DNA from: Patescibacteria group bacterium
GTDB taxonomy: Bacteria > Patescibacteriota > Minisyncoccia > Portnoybacterales > UBA2143
Assembly: GCA_018820085.1 (NCBI GenBank)
Contig: JAHJOV010000020.1
Span: 1 to 32,036 of the forward strand
Direction: 5' to 3'
Length of the DNA: 32,036 bases
Shown here in pieces: positions 1,307-29,741 of this stretch (position 1 is its first letter; each line of letters begins with the position of its first letter). The notes below the pieces were generated by a model. That model did no database searches. It had not been told where the DNA came from and saw only the letters and a program-made list of their open reading frames with translations. The translations under genes were made by a program, and so were the position numbers.

Positions 1307-1419
1307 GAGGTCTGACCTCAGCAGAGGTCCGACCTCTGCGGAATGCGGCCTCAGAATTAAGGTCGGACCTTGTTTTGCCGAACCTCTGCTGAGGTGCGGA
1401 CAAAAAAATGTACGACCTT
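1307..1419. repeat. Composite palindromic repeat (B hairpin plus family A)
   Basis: Fills most of the gap between gyrB and the secE promoter. It contains two short palindromes (GAGGTCTGACCTC at 1307-1319 and AGAGGTCCGACCTCT at 1323-1337). A linker with GCGGAATG and TCAGAATT follows, and then a 61-nt family A palindrome at 1359-1419. The same order, reverse-complemented, occurs at 9939-10055, so the composite is a unit. It is more GC-rich than the flanking genes. Confidence 0.9.
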
Positions 1420-3335: not shown

Positions 3336-5015
3336 ATGAACGATAAAATAGTAAATTTAATTAAGAATCAAATTGGGTCTAATGGAGAAAAGGGATGGCC
3401 AGTCGTTGCTAGAGATAGAATTTCTTTTCCTTCTTTTTCTGAATTAAGAGTCACTGACGCTAATGTCGGTGTTGCTTTTTTGTGGACGATGAGAGATGCG
3501 ATTATTCCGAAGTTAAAAAAAGAAAATTTAGCTATCGCTGCTAATTTCTATACTCCAGCTGGTATTCAGCCGATGATAAGAAATATTTTAGGAAATCCCT
3601 TTATTAGATATTTTATTTTATTAGGAGAGGAATATTCTTCGAAATCTTCTAATGATCAAGTATCAGATTTGACTAGCGCAAATGCGATAAGAAATTTCTT
3701 TGAAAAAGGAATAGATAATAATAGAAAGATTAAAGGTTTTGAAAACGCTGTTTATTTAGACAAGAATATTCCTATTAAATTAATAGAAAAGGTGAGAAAA
3801 AATGTTGAGTTTATTGATTTAAATAAAAAAATGCCAACGGCTTCTTTAGACAAAAAAATCAAGGAAGCAAACAAGTTAGTCAAGACTTTTAAAGAAAAAG
3901 AACCCTTTATGATACCTCAAGTTTTTGATTATGAGCAAACTGAGGACTCTTTTCCTTATGAAGGAGGGCCTATTATTGTTTATGGAGGAAATATTCCTGA
4001 AGCTTGGATAAAGATGATCAGTAATATTTATCGATACGGGAGAAAAAATTTAATGAATGCTAATACAGATAGATGGGTTAAGGAAATAAATGATATGACG
4101 GTGGTTATTCATAATCCTCAAGATATGGATTTATCAATTAATCCGTTTTTAATTCCTTTAACCAAAGAGAAAATAGAGGCTTATAAAAAGGAAATCCTAT
4201 CTCCTTTATTACCCAAGGGTAAAGCCTATACTTACGGGAATAAGTTAAGAGCCTATTATTATCCTGATCCTGAAAAGATTAAAGAACTTGTTAATACTAA
4301 AGAATATAAGGATTTTGAATTTGGGCAGGGTAAATGGTTGGATAAAAATATTCGTTATAAGAAAGGTTATTGTGAGATTAATCAGGTTAAAGATGCTATT
4401 GATACTTTAAAAAGAGACCCTTATTCAAAAACATGTGTAGCGATAACTTGGCATGTTGCTGATGAATTGATGAGAAAACATAAATCTTCTCCGTGTTTAG
4501 TGTTTTTACAGGTATTAGTTCAAGATGAAAAATTGAATTTAACTGTATTTTTCAGAAGTCATGATATGACACAGGGTTGGCCTGAAAATGCTTATGGTTG
4601 TGCTGCAATTCAAGAAGAAATTGCTAAAGGTATTGGAGTTGATTCTGGTCTGTTAACTATTATTTCTGGAAGTGCTCAGATCTATAATAATTATTATCAG
4701 CAAGTTGAAGGAATGTTAAAAAAATATAAGAATGTAATGAAAAGGACCTGTCATGATAAAAGAGGAAATTATCAGATTAAAATTGAAAAAAATAAAATCA
4801 TTGTAACTTTACTCCATCCTGAAACTGGGGTGGAGTTGGAAAAATACTCTGGAAAAACAGCATATGATTTAAGAGATAAAATAGCTTCGATATCTTCTTT
4901 AAATACTAATCATGCAATTTATTTAGGAACAGAATTAGCAATTGCCGAAATGTGTCTTAAAAAGAAAAGGTCATATAATCAAGATTCAACTTTCAAAACA
5001 AGTAATTTGTTTTAA
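3336..5015 (+). CDS. Thymidylate synthase with N-terminal MtrA-like domain
   Basis: Expected to methylate dUMP to dTMP using methylene-tetrahydrofolate. The C-terminal part (about residues 340-520) has ThyA hallmarks: the nucleophile in SSPCLVF (Cys387), the phosphate-binding FFRSHD (Arg407), QGWPENAYG, and SGSAQIYNN in place of the usual GDxHxYxNH. It is nearer the divergent archaeal/methanogen type than Escherichia coli ThyA. The N-terminal part (about 20-165) resembles tetrahydromethanopterin S-methyltransferase subunit A: GWPVV, a KENLAIAANF segment, NPFIRYFILLGEE and VEFIDL. In MtrA a His following the GAE-like motif ligates the corrinoid cobalt. Here that stretch reads GEEYSSKSSND with no His, so corrinoid binding is doubtful. 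The gene lies 4 bases after the dCMP deaminase and directly before glyA. Confidence 0.85.
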   Translation: MNDKIVNLIKNQIGSNGEKGWPVVARDRISFPSFSELRVTDANVGVAFLWTMRDAIIPKLKKENLAIAANFYTPAGIQPMIRNILGNPFIRYFILLGEEYSSKSSNDQVSDLTSANAIRNFFEKGIDNNRKIKGFENAVYLDKNIPIKLIEKVRKNVEFIDLNKKMPTASLDKKIKEANKLVKTFKEKEPFMIPQVFDYEQTEDSFPYEGGPIIVYGGNIPEAWIKMISNIYRYGRKNLMNANTDRWVKEINDMTVVIHNPQDMDLSINPFLIPLTKEKIEAYKKEILSPLLPKGKAYTYGNKLRAYYYPDPEKIKELVNTKEYKDFEFGQGKWLDKNIRYKKGYCEINQVKDAIDTLKRDPYSKTCVAITWHVADELMRKHKSSPCLVFLQVLVQDEKLNLTVFFRSHDMTQGWPENAYGCAAIQEEIAKGIGVDSGLLTIISGSAQIYNNYYQQVEGMLKKYKNVMKRTCHDKRGNYQIKIEKNKIIVTLLHPETGVELEKYSGKTAYDLRDKIASISSLNTNHAIYLGTELAIAEMCLKKKRSYNQDSTFKTSNLF

Positions 5016-6283: not shown

Positions 6284-6377
6284 TTCAGAATTAAGGTCGG
6301 ACCTTGTTTTGCCGGACCTCTGCTGAGGTACGGACAAAACAATGTACGACCTTATCAATACGGACCTTATCAACGCG
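6284..6377. repeat. Family A palindrome plus tandem 15-mers before folD
   Basis: A 61-nt family A palindrome (6293-6353), preceded by the linker fragment TTCAGAATT that joins A and B elsewhere. It is followed by two copies of a 15-base unit (GACCTTATCAATACG and GACCTTATCAACGCG, 6348-6377) ending 2 bases before the folD ATG. The unit TTATCAA with an upstream CGGACA 16 bases away resembles a weak promoter. Confidence 0.88.
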
Positions 6378-6379
6378 AT

Positions 6380-7183
6380 ATGAATATTATAGATGGAAAA
6401 AAAATAGCAGATGGGATTTTGGAAGAGTTGAAGGAAGAAATTGAAGAAAAAGAACTTAAACCTTGTTTAGGTATTATTTTAGTAGGAAATAATCTAGCTT
6501 CTCAGCTATACGTTCAGAAAAAAGAACAAGCTACCCAGAAAGTTGGTATTGAAATTAAAAAGAAAGTTTTAACTCAAAATACTTCAGAAGAAGAAATCTT
6601 AAAAATTATTAATCAATTTAATCAAGATAATCAAGTTAATGGTATTTTAGTTCAAATGCCTTTACCTGAAGGGATTAATTCAGATAAAATTATTAAAGCA
6701 ATTAATCTAGAAAAAGATGTTGATGGGTTTTTGTCAGAAAGTAAGTTTGATTCTCCTTTTATTCTAGCCATAGAACAAGCCCTAAAATCAATTGAGGAGG
6801 ATTTAGATGATAAAAAAACAATTGCTCTGGTTAATTCAGAAGTTTTTGGAGAGAGGTTAGAACATAAATTGAGATTATGTGTTAAAAGTATTCGGGCCAT
6901 CGTATGGCCAAATGTATTCGGCCATCCGATGGCCGAATATGATATTATTATCACTGCTTTAGGCAAACCCCATATAATAAAGGGAGACATGGTTAAATCG
7001 GGTGTTATTTTAATAGATGGCGGAATTAGTAAAAAAGATGGTAAAATAGTAGGAGATGTTGATAGGGAAAGTGTTCAAGAAAAAGCCAGTTGGCTTTCAC
7101 CAGTCCCAGGCGGACTTGGTCCTCTAACAGTCGCTTTTCTTTTGCGAAATGTTATAGGGACGGTAATCAAGGTCGGACCTTAA
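6380..7183 (+). CDS. folD: FolD-like methylenetetrahydrofolate dehydrogenase/cyclohydrolase with in-frame repeat
   Basis: Bifunctional one-carbon enzyme interconverting methylene-, methenyl- and formyl-tetrahydrofolate with NADP. Conserved here are YVQKKEQATQKVGI with the catalytic Lys48, GILVQMPLP, EKDVDGF and PVPGGLGPLTVAFLLRN near the end. Several usual features are altered. The PCTPxG segment reads FDSPFILA. The cofactor loop GRSxxVGxP reads VNSEVFGER. Residues 171-187 (IRAIVWPNVFGHPMAEY) come from a 51-nt palindrome placed where the NADP-contacting strand and loop normally lie. The last four residues and the TAA stop come from the 5' arm of the next repeat. Length is 267 residues against about 280-300 usual. 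The enzyme may have altered cofactor use or reduced dehydrogenase activity. The family assignment is firm. Confidence 0.88.
   Translation: MNIIDGKKIADGILEELKEEIEEKELKPCLGIILVGNNLASQLYVQKKEQATQKVGIEIKKKVLTQNTSEEEILKIINQFNQDNQVNGILVQMPLPEGINSDKIIKAINLEKDVDGFLSESKFDSPFILAIEQALKSIEEDLDDKKTIALVNSEVFGERLEHKLRLCVKSIRAIVWPNVFGHPMAEYDIIITALGKPHIIKGDMVKSGVILIDGGISKKDGKIVGDVDRESVQEKASWLSPVPGGLGPLTVAFLLRNVIGTVIKVGP
6890..6940 (+). repeat. Family 2 in-frame palindromic element in folD
   Basis: A 51-nt imperfect palindrome with arms starting ATTCGGGCCATCGTATGGCC and ending GGCCATCCGATGGCCGAAT. It is read as IRAIVWPNVFGHPMAEY (folD residues 171-187). The same element in the same frame occurs at 22241-22291 and 22727-22777. 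No intergenic copy is seen in this window. Confidence 0.9.
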
Positions 7184-7272
7184 AATGCCGAACCTTTCTC
7201 AACGAAAATTTAAAATATGAGGTAATTTAATAAGGTTAGATGGAAAGGTTCGGCATTTTAAGGTCCGACCTT
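7169..7272. repeat. Long inverted repeat spanning folD stop and gatB start
   Basis: Two perfectly complementary 30-base arms (7169-7198 and 7243-7272) begin AAGGTCGGACCTTAAAATGC and flank a 44-base AT-rich centre. The left arm supplies the folD stop codon at 7181-7183. The right arm is followed by TATCACGCAG and the gatB ATG. The layout is MITE-like and related to family A through its outer arm sequence. Confidence 0.92.
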
Positions 7273-9933: not shown

Positions 9934-9961
9934 ATGATAAGGTCGGACATTGTTTTGTCCG
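9934..9961 (-). promoter_or_regulatory. Possible repeat-derived promoter of miaA
   Basis: On the minus strand, CGGACA (9961-9956) lies 16 bases before TATCAT (9939-9934), which ends 9 bases before the miaA ATG. The -35-like box belongs to the family A repeat. Spacing suggests a leaderless or nearly leaderless transcript. Confidence 0.35.
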
Positions 9962-10084
9962 TACCTCAGCAGAGGTCCGGCAAAACAAGGTCCGACCTTA
10001 ATTCTGAAGCAACTATATTCCGCAGAGGTCAGACCTTTGGGGAAGGTCTGACCTCATCTTTTGACAAAATAATGTACGACCTCT
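9939..10084. repeat. Composite palindromic repeat between miaA and miaB
   Basis: A full composite. Family A occupies 9939-9999. The linker includes AATTCTGAAGC and ATTCCGC. The B hairpin at 10024-10055 (AGAGGTCAGACCT paired with AGGTCTGACCTC) follows, and then a 24-base remnant of a second A copy in opposite orientation (10061-10084). That remnant ends 5 bases from the miaB stop codon. Confidence 0.9.
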
Positions 10085-19898: not shown

Positions 19899-20983
19899 TG
19901 CGTGTTGCTTTAGTTCATGATTATCTTAATCAGTATGGAGGGGCCGAAAGGGTTTTAGAAGCTTTTGGACAGATTTTTCCTAAAGCTCCAATTTACACCC
20001 TGCTTTATGATAAAAAAAGAACTGGTTATGCTTTTGAAGGACGAGAGATTCATACTTCTTTTATGCAAAAAGTTCCTTTTGTTAAATCTCATCATCGTCC
20101 TTTTTTAATGTTAATGCCTTTGGCTATTGAACAATTTGATTTGTCTGATTATGATTTGATTCTTTCTGATTCAGCTAGTTATGCCAAAGGGGTAATTACT
20201 TCCCCTCAAACATTACATATTTGTTATTGTCATACACCAATTCGTTATGCTTGGGATGATTCTCATAAATACATTGAAGAATTTGGTTATTCTAGTTTAA
20301 TTAAAAAGGTAATTCCTTTTTTTATGAACTATATCCGGGTTTGGGATGAACAAGCTGCTCAGAGAGTTGATAAATTTATTGCTAATTCTCGATTTGTCTC
20401 TCAGCGAATTAGGAAATATTACAAGCGGGAATCAAAAGTAATTCATCCACCGGTTAAAACAGATCTTTTTTATGTCGCTCCTAAACCAGAAGAATATTTT
20501 TTAATGGTTGGTCGCTTTTTGCCATATAAGAGATTTAATTTAGCTATTGAAGCCTTTAATCAACTTGGTTGGTCATTAAAGATCATTGGCGATGGACCAG
20601 AAAGAAAAAAGCTTGAGGCCTTGGCTAATGATAATATTGAATTTTTGGGTTTAGTTTCTGATCAAAAATTAAGAGATTTTTATGCTCATTGTCAGGCTTT
20701 TATTTTCCCTCAAGAAGAGGATTTTGGTATCACTGCTGTTGAAGCAATGGCTTCAGGTCGGCCTGTTATTGCTTATCAGGGTGGTGGCATTTTAGAGATT
20801 ATTCAATCAGAAATAACAGGACTTTTTTTCAAAGAACAAACCACAGATTGTTTGATTGAGGTACTTAAAAAGTTTAATCCTGATAATTTTAACTCTCAAG
20901 TTATTAGGGAAAGAGCTTTAGAATTTGATCAGGAAAGATTTAAAGAGAAAATTATTAAATTTATCAATGAATATAGGAATTGA
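19898..20983 (+). CDS. GT-B glycosyltransferase, family 4-like
   Basis: Cytoplasmic sugar transferase, probably mannosyl- or similar, extending the lipid-linked glycan begun by the preceding enzyme. The N-terminal domain begins RVALVHDYLNQYGGAERVLEAF. The C-terminal nucleotide-sugar domain has YFLMVGRFLPYKRFNLAIEAF, IIGDGPERKKLEAL, and the EX7E region EDFGITAVEAMASGRPVIAY. The start ATG at 19898 shares one base with the preceding stop (TAATG), favouring translational coupling. An upstream ATG at 19823 lies inside the previous gene. The 361 residues show no palindromic insert, unlike the next two glycosyltransferases. Confidence 0.92.
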   Translation: MRVALVHDYLNQYGGAERVLEAFGQIFPKAPIYTLLYDKKRTGYAFEGREIHTSFMQKVPFVKSHHRPFLMLMPLAIEQFDLSDYDLILSDSASYAKGVITSPQTLHICYCHTPIRYAWDDSHKYIEEFGYSSLIKKVIPFFMNYIRVWDEQAAQRVDKFIANSRFVSQRIRKYYKRESKVIHPPVKTDLFYVAPKPEEYFLMVGRFLPYKRFNLAIEAFNQLGWSLKIIGDGPERKKLEALANDNIEFLGLVSDQKLRDFYAHCQAFIFPQEEDFGITAVEAMASGRPVIAYQGGGILEIIQSEITGLFFKEQTTDCLIEVLKKFNPDNFNSQVIRERALEFDQERFKEKIIKFINEYRN

Positions 20984-22130
20984 TATTAGAGTTTTAGCTC
21001 GAGGAGCCAGGACTGGAGTAGAGGAGTATACAATCAATCTTCTGTCTTGTCTTCTAACTCTTGAGCCCAAGATTAATTTTCATCTTTTCTATAATGCCTA
21101 TCGAAAAGTTGATTTAGATTATAATTGGCTTAATTTGAATAATGTTAAATTAAAAGATTTTAGAATTCCTAATCGTTTCTTTTTTACTACAGCCCGTTAT
21201 TTTGAATGGCCGAAAATAGATAAATTACTTGGGGATCGAGGGAAATTAGACATATATTTTAATCCTCATTTTTTTGTCGCTCCTTTGACAGATGGATGTA
21301 AAAAAGTAATTACTTTTCATGATCTATCTTTTGAACATCATCCAGAGTTTTTTTCTTGGCGGAAAAGAGTTTGGCAGAAGTTTTTAATGAATACTAAAAA
21401 GGAAGCCCAGAAAGCGGATAAGATTATTGCTGTTTCAGAATCAACCAAAAGTGATTTAATTAATCTTTATAGGATTGATTCAGAAAAGATAAAAGTAATT
21501 TATTCAGGAGTGGGGAAACAATTCAAGCCTATGAAGCTAGAGGTCGGACCTCGTTTTGTCCGTACCTCAGCAGAGGTCCGGCAAAACAAGGTCCGACCTC
21601 TGATTCCCGAAAAGTTTATTTTGTATTTCGGCACTATTGAACCACGTAAAAACTTAATCGGTCTTATTAAAGCATTCGAATTATTAAAGGATAAGAGTAT
21701 TAAGTTAGTTATTGCTGGAACCAAGGGTTGGCTTTATCAAGATATTTTTAAAATAGCTAGTCAGTCAAAAAGAAAAAAAGATATTATCTTTACCGGTTTC
21801 GTTAAAGAAGAGGATAAGCCATATTTATATAATTTAGCTCAGTCTTTTGTCTATCCTAGTTTTTTTGAAGGTTTTGGCTTTCCTCCTTTAGAAGCAATGG
21901 CTTGTGGAATTCCAACAATTGTTTCAGCTAATTCTTCACTTCCAGAAGTGGTTGGTGATGCTGCTTTAATGGTTAATCCAAAGAACATTGATGAATTAGC
22001 TTGGGCTATGGAAGAATCTTTAGTTAATAATCAACTAAGAGAACGATTGATTAAAAAAGGATTAACACAGGCTCAAAAGTTTTCTTGGCAAAGATGTGCT
22101 CAACAAACATTAAAAGTTTTAACAGAATGA
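20967..22130 (+). CDS. GT-B glycosyltransferase with in-frame family A repeat
   Basis: Family 4-type glycosyltransferase of the same envelope cluster, beginning [20 protein letters not shown]. The linker between the two Rossmann domains normally runs from VIYSGV to [17 protein letters not shown]. Here it is extended by residues about 191-211 ([21 protein letters not shown]), encoded by a 63-nt family A palindrome. After it, [25 protein letters not shown] and the EX7E motif [20 protein letters not shown] are intact, so the enzyme is probably active. Length is 387 residues. The start overlaps the preceding gene by 17 bases. The end forms ATGA with the next gene. Confidence 0.92.
21539..21601 (+). 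repeat. Family A palindrome inserted in frame in a glycosyltransferase
   Basis: A 63-nt copy with arms AGAGGTCGGACCT (21539-21551) and AGGTCCGACCTCT (21589-21601) plus an inner CCGTACCTC/AGAGGTCCGG pairing. Its length is a multiple of three and it adds 21 codons to the interdomain linker. Other family A copies in the window are intergenic. Confidence 0.93.
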
Positions 22131-23296
22131 TTAAGAGAAAACAAATCAGAATAGGGATTGATGCGCGATTTTATGGACCAAAACAAAAAGGCCTAGGGCG
22201 CTATGTTCAAAAATTAGTTGAGAATTTAGAGAAGGTAGATATTCGGGCTATCCGATGGCCAAATGCATTCGGCCATCGGATAGCCGAATACAGATTTATA
22301 ATCTTCCTCCGCCGAGAGAATTGGAATGAATATCAACCAAGTAATTCTAATTTTAAAAAGGTTTTAGCTGATTATCCTTGGTATAGTTTGCAAGAACAAT
22401 TTTTTATGCCTTTTAAGATTAGGCAACAAAAAGTTGATTTAATGCATTTTCCTCATTTTAATGTACCTATTTTTTATAATCAACCATTTGTTATAACTAT
22501 TCATGATTTAATTCTTAAAAAATTTCCTACTCGTCGAGCTTCTACTTTAGGCCCTATTAGATATTGGCTTAAAAATTTAGCTTACGATTCAGTTATTAAG
22601 TCAGCTATTAAAAGAGCTAAAAAAATTATTGCTGTTTCTAAATACACTAAAGAAGATATATTAAAATACTTTGATGTTGAGTCGGATAAAATTAAAGTTA
22701 TTTATGAAGGTTCGCCGAAGCCAAATATTCGGGCCATCCGACGGCTAAATGTATTCGGCCATCGGATGGCCGAATATTCTCCATATCTCCTCTACGTCGG
22801 CAATGCTTATCCTCATAAGAATCTGGAACGGTTAATTTCTACTTTTAAAGGATTAGTTAAAGAGAAGAAGAATTTAAAATTAGTTTTAGTTGGAGAATTA
22901 GACTATTTTTATCAACGACTTCAAAAGATTAGTCCAGCTCAGGTTGTTTTTACTGATTTTGTTTCTGATCAAGAATTAGTCAAGCTTTATCAAAATGCTT
23001 CTCTTTATGTCTTTCCTTCATTGTGTGAGGGATTTGGTTTGCCACCTTTGGAAGCTATGACTTACAATTTGCCAGTGGTTTGTTCTAAAAATAGTTGTTT
23101 ACCTGAAATTTTAGGTCAAGCAGCTATATATTTTGATCCAGAAAATACGGATGATATGGTTGATAAAATCAAGAAAGTTTTAGATAATAAGAAACTACAA
23201 AAGAAATTGATTTTTCAGGGCAAAGAAACCATTAAAAAGTATAGTTGGCATAAGATGGCTAAAGAAACATTGGAGGTTTATAAGAGCAACTTATAG
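22127..23296 (+). CDS. GT-B glycosyltransferase with two in-frame family 2 repeats
   Basis: Third GT-B enzyme of the cluster, starting [20 protein letters not shown]. The start at 22127 overlaps the previous stop as ATGA. Two 51-nt palindromes add residues 39-55 (IRAIRWPNAFGHRIAEY) in the N-terminal domain and residues 201-217 (IRAIRRLNVFGHRMAEY) in the interdomain linker, just before SPYLLYVGNAYPHKNLERLI. Donor-site features follow normally: LVLVGELDYFYQRL, VFTDFVSDQELVKLYQNA and the EX7E motif CEGFGLPPLEAMTYNLPVVC. Length is 389 residues. Without the inserts it would be about 355, near the family size, and the intact motifs suggest it is still functional. Confidence 0.92.
   Translation: MIKRKQIRIGIDARFYGPKQKGLGRYVQKLVENLEKVDIRAIRWPNAFGHRIAEYRFIIFLRRENWNEYQPSNSNFKKVLADYPWYSLQEQFFMPFKIRQQKVDLMHFPHFNVPIFYNQPFVITIHDLILKKFPTRRASTLGPIRYWLKNLAYDSVIKSAIKRAKKIIAVSKYTKEDILKYFDVESDKIKVIYEGSPKPNIRAIRRLNVFGHRMAEYSPYLLYVGNAYPHKNLERLISTFKGLVKEKKNLKLVLVGELDYFYQRLQKISPAQVVFTDFVSDQELVKLYQNASLYVFPSLCEGFGLPPLEAMTYNLPVVCSKNSCLPEILGQAAIYFDPENTDDMVDKIKKVLDNKKLQKKLIFQGKETIKKYSWHKMAKETLEVYKSNL
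22241..22291 (+). repeat. Family 2 in-frame palindromic element, copy 2
   Basis: Arms ATTCGGGCTATCCGATGGCC and GGCCATCGGATAGCCGAAT flank AAATGCATTC. Compared with the other copies, a C-G pair is replaced by T-A on both arms, a compensatory change. It is read as IRAIRWPNAFGHRIAEY. Confidence 0.92.
22727..22777 (+). repeat. Family 2 in-frame palindromic element, copy 3
   Basis: Arms ATTCGGGCCATCCGACGGC and the complementary TCGGATGGCCGAAT around AAATGTATTC. It is read as IRAIRRLNVFGHRMAEY in the same element frame as the other copies. Confidence 0.92.
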
Positions 23297-23311: not shown

Positions 23312-23472
23312 TTGTCCACAGGTGGTTTTGTCAGGGAAGTGTGGCATATAAATATGAGGTCAGACCTTCAGTAAAGGTCTGACCTTATCAATGCGGACCT
23401 TATCAATGCGGACCTTATCAATGCGGACCTATCTTGTCCACAGGTGGTTCAGTTAGGGAAATATGGTATAAT
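23312..23472 (+). promoter_or_regulatory. Duplicated promoter-like region upstream of the DUF4012 gene, with repeat between
   Basis: Two similar stretches each start TTGTCCACAGGTGGTT (23312 and 23434), continue with an AGGGAA-containing segment and end in a -10-like box (TATAAA at 23347-23352, TATAAT at 23467-23472). Between them lie a B-type hairpin (23356-23386) and about 3.3 copies of the 15-mer GACCTTATCAATGCG (23381-23430). TTGTCCACA differs from the DnaA box TTATCCACA by one base. The TATAAT nearer the gene is the likelier promoter. The whole gap between 23297 and 23508 is covered by this. Confidence 0.6.
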
Positions 23473-29578: not shown

Positions 29579-29741
29579 CGAGGTCCGATCTTATTTTGTG
29601 TGATAAGGTCAGCATTGATAAGGTCGGACATTATTTTGTCTGAACCTTCAGTAAAGGTTCAGCAAAAGAAGGTCCGACCTTAAATCTGAAGCAGGTTGCT
29701 ACATTCCGCAGAGGTCAGACCTTTGGGGAAGGTCTGACCTC
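29579..29741. repeat. Composite palindromic repeat cluster before tRNA-Gly
   Basis: Contains AGGTCCGATC and ATAAGGTC fragments, a family A copy with the variant inner hairpin (CTGAACCTTCAGTAAAGGTTCAG), the ATTCCGC linker, and a B hairpin (AGAGGTCAGACCT with AGGTCTGACCTCG, about 29710-29741). It ends 11 bases before the tRNA gene. Confidence 0.87.

Follow-up and report, generated by a model that had tools for sequence, protein, structure and literature searches.

Palindromic repeats that reside within protein-coding genes are already known as a kind, both from the Rickettsia palindromic elements (RPEs) and from intragenic REPs (PMC10969869, PMC3733652, PMC6649704). The same papers give the RPEs (Ogata et al. 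2000, 2002, via PMC10969869, PMC6649704 and PMC3733652) a length of around 150 bp and mention that shorter, REP-like RPEs exist. For the transposases known as RAYTs, an arrangement in which the gene is flanked by inverted repeats has been described (PMC2817692). A limited search of the literature yielded nothing relevant on REPINs or REPs in Patescibacteria/CPR.

The window, i.e. the whole stretch of 32,036 nt that was analysed, contains a folD gene in which an earlier note had pointed out a palindromic insert at positions 6890-6940. This palindrome is real and not a product of chance: it forms a hairpin at 6889-6939 that is one of eight copies, on five contigs, of a 50/51-nt hairpin family that we refer to as element A. 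The copies of this family, like those of element B described below, were gathered by a similarity search of this genome (556 kb in 42 contigs, 94% complete and thus about 6% missing), so that divergent or partial copies may have been missed. Three of the eight lie within the window. The copies and the main host genes are:

6380..7183, plus strand: folD (methylene-THF dehydrogenase/cyclohydrolase), an intact ORF of 267 aa
6889..6939, no strand assigned: element A copy in folD, a 51-nt hairpin with a 20-bp stem, one bulged G and a 10-nt loop
22127..23296, plus strand: GT4 glycosyltransferase gene, host of two element A copies
22240..22290, no strand assigned: element A copy 1 in the GT4 glycosyltransferase gene, in frame, IRAIRWPNAFGHRIAEY
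22726..22776, no strand assigned: element A copy 2 in the same gene, IRAIRRLNVFGHRMAEY, in a length-variable inter-domain linker
Contig C28: element A copy in frame in an O-antigen-ligase-like gene
Contig C12: element A copy in frame in dprA
Contig C23, position 607: element A copy in frame in ftsK
Contig C19: element A copy in frame in a 1056-aa ORF without a Pfam match
Contig C23, position 5673: element A copy between def and fmt, the sole intergenic one of the eight

The folD codons 6890-6940 (IRAIVWPNVFGHPMAEY, FolD residues 171-187) nearly coincide with the hairpin. Folded as DNA, the hairpin has an energy of -17.8 kcal/mol (z -5.3) and no shuffled sequence was equally good; folding of the flanked 61-nt stretch as RNA gave a z of -5.7. 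No Rfam family was found at this position. The hairpin is conserved throughout the family: 154 of the 160 stem pairs are maintained across the eight copies, and five stem pairs represent double, i.e. compensatory, changes. In layout, two inverted palindromic units (of the GGCCATCSGATGGCC type) flank the 10-nt loop, and the copies start with TATTC, CATTC or CATTT and end with GAATA or AATG. A GTAG or CGTC tag is absent from these ends, and inspection by eye revealed no target-site duplications beside the copies. The intergenic, ligase and ftsK copies have the 50-nt form, an unbulged hairpin, and those in folD, dprA, the C19 ORF and the glycosyltransferase (both copies) have the 51-nt form with one extra base.

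Seven of the eight copies are located inside long ORFs, in six genes, and all of these are in frame, although they are read in two different frames. Domain or homologue support is available for five of the six host genes, with Pfam domains identifying ftsK, dprA, the ligase and the glycosyltransferase. Given a chance of one in three for each copy, preservation of the frame in 7/7 genic copies has a p of 5e-4. Compared to seven relatives, the glycosyltransferase has clearly gained a net 14 aa through its first copy. The dprA gene (L109, 8782-9951) carries three in-frame palindromic inserts, two of element B and one of element A. The genic share of element A (7/8) differs from that of element B (about 4/44 full copies; Fisher p about 2e-5, where the genic and intergenic classes follow from ORF and homology as judged by eye). 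Nevertheless, random insertion may suffice to explain this share and no preference is needed, because genes cover most of such genomes and there are only eight copies. A more far-reaching view would be that element A is specialised for intragenic life, with copies that replace and do not only add host codons and one from which a probably essential enzyme obtains a strand of its Rossmann fold. It derives from the fact that five of the seven genic copies have the 51-nt form, which equals 17 whole codons, and that several frames are open; we regard this view as rather unlikely.

Among the genomes searched, element A is restricted to this one. Neither element A nor element B was found in 54 relatives (eight of the same family), nor in a draw of 383 genomes from the class that overlaps partly with these relatives. 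The 22-nt core of element A had one exact match in the public species collection, in a Verrucomicrobium, which was rejected as a relative since it comprised only the core and the hairpin arms were missing. The core pattern gave no match within the Rickettsiales of that collection. A viral origin of the two elements was likewise discarded, as viral contigs contained no match to the pattern of either.

Element B is a REPIN-like family of about 44 full copies that are nearly all intergenic. Four of them are in frame within genes: two in dprA, one in the glycosyltransferase at 20925-22130 and one in a comF-like gene. Within the window the following B-type features were recovered:

1360..1418, plus strand: element B, intergenic, after gyrB
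6294..6352, no strand assigned: element B in the glyA-folD gap, directly upstream of folD
7169..7198, plus strand: B-type REP arm that supplies the last codons (KVGP) and the stop of folD
7243..7272, minus strand: inverted partner of the arm at 7169-7198, 100% complementary, with 44 nt between the arms
9940..9998, minus strand: element B, intergenic, upstream of miaA
11074..11132, plus strand: element B, intergenic
21541..21599, minus strand: element B, in frame in the other GT4 glycosyltransferase (ORF 20925-22130)
29621..29680, minus strand: divergent element B, intergenic

The terminal IKVGP and TAA of folD (7165-7183) derive from the B-type arm, and B-type repeats occur at or near other gene ends as well, for instance that of fmt (L110, 4831-5661). 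An intergenic cluster of B-type palindromes is flanked by two 37-nt direct repeats (23312-23348 and 23434-23470; TTGTCCACAGGTGG...), the start of which resembles a DnaA box. The gyrB gene that precedes the first copy is a fragment (26-1297) with an intein, for which the Intein_splicing model matched residues 43-220 below cut-off, followed by the Toprim and GyrB C-terminal domains.

The genome yielded one Y1 transposase match, a full-length RAYT-like ORF of 192 aa (C9:699-1277). It scored above cut-off for PF01797, and its only NCBIfam match was REP_Tyr_transpos (NF047646) with 47 bits, which is below the cut-off of 80. Inverted B-type repeats (C9:649-682 and 1287-1320) adjoin the ORF on both sides. 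Element A was not found beside it; the only Y1 gene detected in this 94% complete genome is flanked by B. This RAYT could have moved element A too, which would then be a second REP subfamily within the element B system, considering the presence of a full-length RAYT-like gene, the inverted-doublet REPIN layout of element A and the fact that several REP types are frequent in RAYT genomes (PMC3733652, PMC6006769). We consider this possible but doubtful: element A does not accompany the RAYT, the two elements have no evident sequence in common, and their locations differ, with A in genes and B in intergenic regions.

Palindromes were also encountered in sister genera. In one sister genome (G007) an equivalent RAYT gene is located between a sigma-factor-like and a beta-propeller-like ORF, as it is here, and is flanked by REPIN hairpins of a different family (GGGGGCTGCCCCC) that has dozens of matches in that genome. 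Another genome (G005) holds two matches to the GGGGGCTGCCCCC family, both in frame: one in KsgA, before NIPYY, and one in a glycosyltransferase, in the same linker that contains copy 2 of element A. Since a family that flanks the RAYT of G007 is in frame within genes of G005, these sequences indicate that, in this lineage, insertion into genes does occur for palindromes with a RAYT link. In G007, moreover, a 767-aa ORF (L119 / L241) fuses two adjacent glycosyltransferases, with a GGGGGCTGCCCCC hairpin at the junction that seems to have abolished the stop between them.

The folD product matches both Pfam domains (THF_DHG_CYH, 2.5e-36; THF_DHG_CYH_C, 5e-27) and has kept the catalytic residues Tyr44, Lys48, Gln92 and DVDG. 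The earlier note was accurate in stating that Lys48, DVDG, PGGLGP and VNSEVFGER are retained and that SPFI(LA) takes the place of PCTPxG. It had, however, coupled the motif losses to the insert, and this is not borne out. The FolDs of the same family (L018-L022; the four in the protein alignment are 52-61% identical) lack element A and nevertheless have SPFI or PPFI instead of PCTPxG and NS or KS instead of GRS. The insert was thus rejected as the cause of the losses; because insert-free family members share the SPFI-type motif and are without the 2'-phosphate arginine, comparison of the sequences identifies the loss as a trait of the lineage. The note had itself named, as a finding that would refute it, insert-free relatives with the same motif losses and a proven normal dehydrogenase activity; of this, the part on motif losses was observed.

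The note had further taken the 17 residues to be simply added, which did not stand up either. In the element-bearing FolD, 30 residues separate the G of VFG from the D of DIIITALG, as compared to 22, 26, 26 and 32 in four same-family FolDs, 31-34 in other relatives and 31-33, mostly 31, in FolDs of viral contigs. Three of the four family members have a segment that falls short of this by 4-8 residues. The length is canonical (30 versus 31), native codons are missing, and on these segment lengths a clean 17-residue insertion was rejected. Because the segment minus the 17 residues would amount to 13, shorter than in any relative, the sequences point to an insertion that was probably accompanied by loss of native codons, or to a replacement. 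The neighbours of folD include glyA, a dCMP-deaminase-like gene and a single ORF (3336-5015) in which three domains are combined, namely thymidylate synthase, MtrA-like and PterinBD-DUF4346.

The position of the insert at the cofactor region had been assigned correctly. In the alignment, the element peptide stands where canonical FolDs have the T-H-[RS]-x-T-x-[DN]-L segment, and in an AlphaFold2 model (mean pLDDT 92.5, pTM 0.89; 14 sequences, no other element-bearing FolD in the alignment, cofactor absent) it is predicted to form strand 170-175 and the subsequent loop of the Rossmann domain (pLDDT about 88-92), ahead of strand 189-193. It would therewith replace a Rossmann strand and the 2'-phosphate loop, the part on which His196 and Ser197 are found in human MTHFD1. 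The best PDB match to the model was C. jejuni FolD (6deb, TM-score 0.91). In human MTHFD1, Arg173, His196 and Ser197 bind the NADP 2'-phosphate (PMC3368264); the aligned residues here are Asn152, Ile174 and Val175, so that all three ligands are absent. The changed cofactor use suggested in the note is possible, in the form of a reduced preference for NADP, and would predate the insert, because the arginine has been lost across the family. One could also imagine an exaptation, in which the palindromic peptide was kept as a useful new cofactor site or fold element of FolD. The good confidence with which the strand and loop are predicted would fit, but the model draws on homologues without the element, unrelated proteins contain the same peptide, in several cases within linkers or variable regions, and there is no sign of selection on the peptide itself, which makes this very improbable.

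A relaxed constraint on the whole FolD, as the note had considered, is disfavoured by the kept catalytic residues and the remaining pathway. Both fmt and def are present, as identified from their sequences, and a formate-THF ligase (PF01268) was not found in this 94% complete genome or in 19 relatives, whereas control genomes matched. When this ligase is lacking, the 10-formyl-THF for the initiator tRNA has to come from FolD and both activities are required. Given fmt and def and the failure to find the ligase, pathway knowledge suggests that both activities are probably needed. The enzyme probably stays functional, because the cofactor segment was already degenerate in the lineage before the element arrived. 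Taken at face value, a FolD without PCTPxG and without all three 2'-phosphate ligands might be seen as the product of a decaying pseudogene, and folD and the other hosts as genes that tolerate any insertion, with motif losses and palindrome both reflecting relaxed constraint. We give this very little credence, as intact genes of insert-free relatives show the same losses, the catalytic residues are invariant, the reading frame is maintained in every genic copy, the hosts include ftsK and dprA, and fmt and def are there with no formate-THF ligase recovered.

In our opinion the folD insert is most likely a copy of a genome-specific, non-autonomous and mostly intragenic palindromic mobile element of REPIN-like build, which would spread within the genome with preservation of the frame and the host protein. 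Element A would probably spread as a single-stranded hairpin on which an HUH/Y1-type activity acts in trans. The copies that survive would mostly be those in protein genes that retained their reading frame and a preserved product. The element peptide of FolD would have replaced the strand/loop segment at which canonical FolDs bind the NADP 2'-phosphate. Against this reading stand the lack of a transposase linked to A, the loss of folD codons beyond a simple insertion and the small number of eight copies.

Palindromes in genes have thus far been a Rickettsia curiosity, the mover of which is not known. Here, a small-genome lineage has several palindrome families in frame in genes, in three genera, and as two of the families in the lineage flank a RAYT-like transposase, the mover of protein-coding palindromes becomes testable. 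FolD provides a natural case in which mobile DNA supplies part of the core fold of an enzyme. The element A family, its location in genes and its place at a Rossmann strand appear to be new. As compared to bacterial FolDs (E. coli 1b0a, C. jejuni 3p2o/6deb), fold and catalytic residues are shared, but this FolD lacks PCTPxG and the 2'-phosphate ligands and has a strand/loop encoded by a mobile palindrome. With the RPEs, element A shares the in-frame presence of palindromes in unrelated protein genes, the apparently functional hosts and the lack of an identified mobiliser; by the same descriptions it is set apart by its size (about 50 nt versus about 150 bp) and its patescibacterial host. The inverted palindromic doublet hairpin is shared with the REPIN/RAYT system (Bertels and Rainey 2011, PMC3116915; Nunvar et al. 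2010, PMC2817692), and element B lies on both sides of the one RAYT-like gene, in the arrangement reported for RAYTs (PMC2817692). Yet REPs are mainly extragenic and RAYT-flanking (PMC3116915, PMC2817692), whereas element A has most of its copies in genes and is not linked to the RAYT. The intragenic GTAG/CGTC REPs (PMC3733652) occur like element A in coding regions, as monomers or dimers and sometimes several per gene, but are mostly intergenic in their genomes (PMC3733652) and carry the tag that the ends of element A lack. On the basis of these analogies, element A is best read as REPIN-like in build and RPE-like in working.
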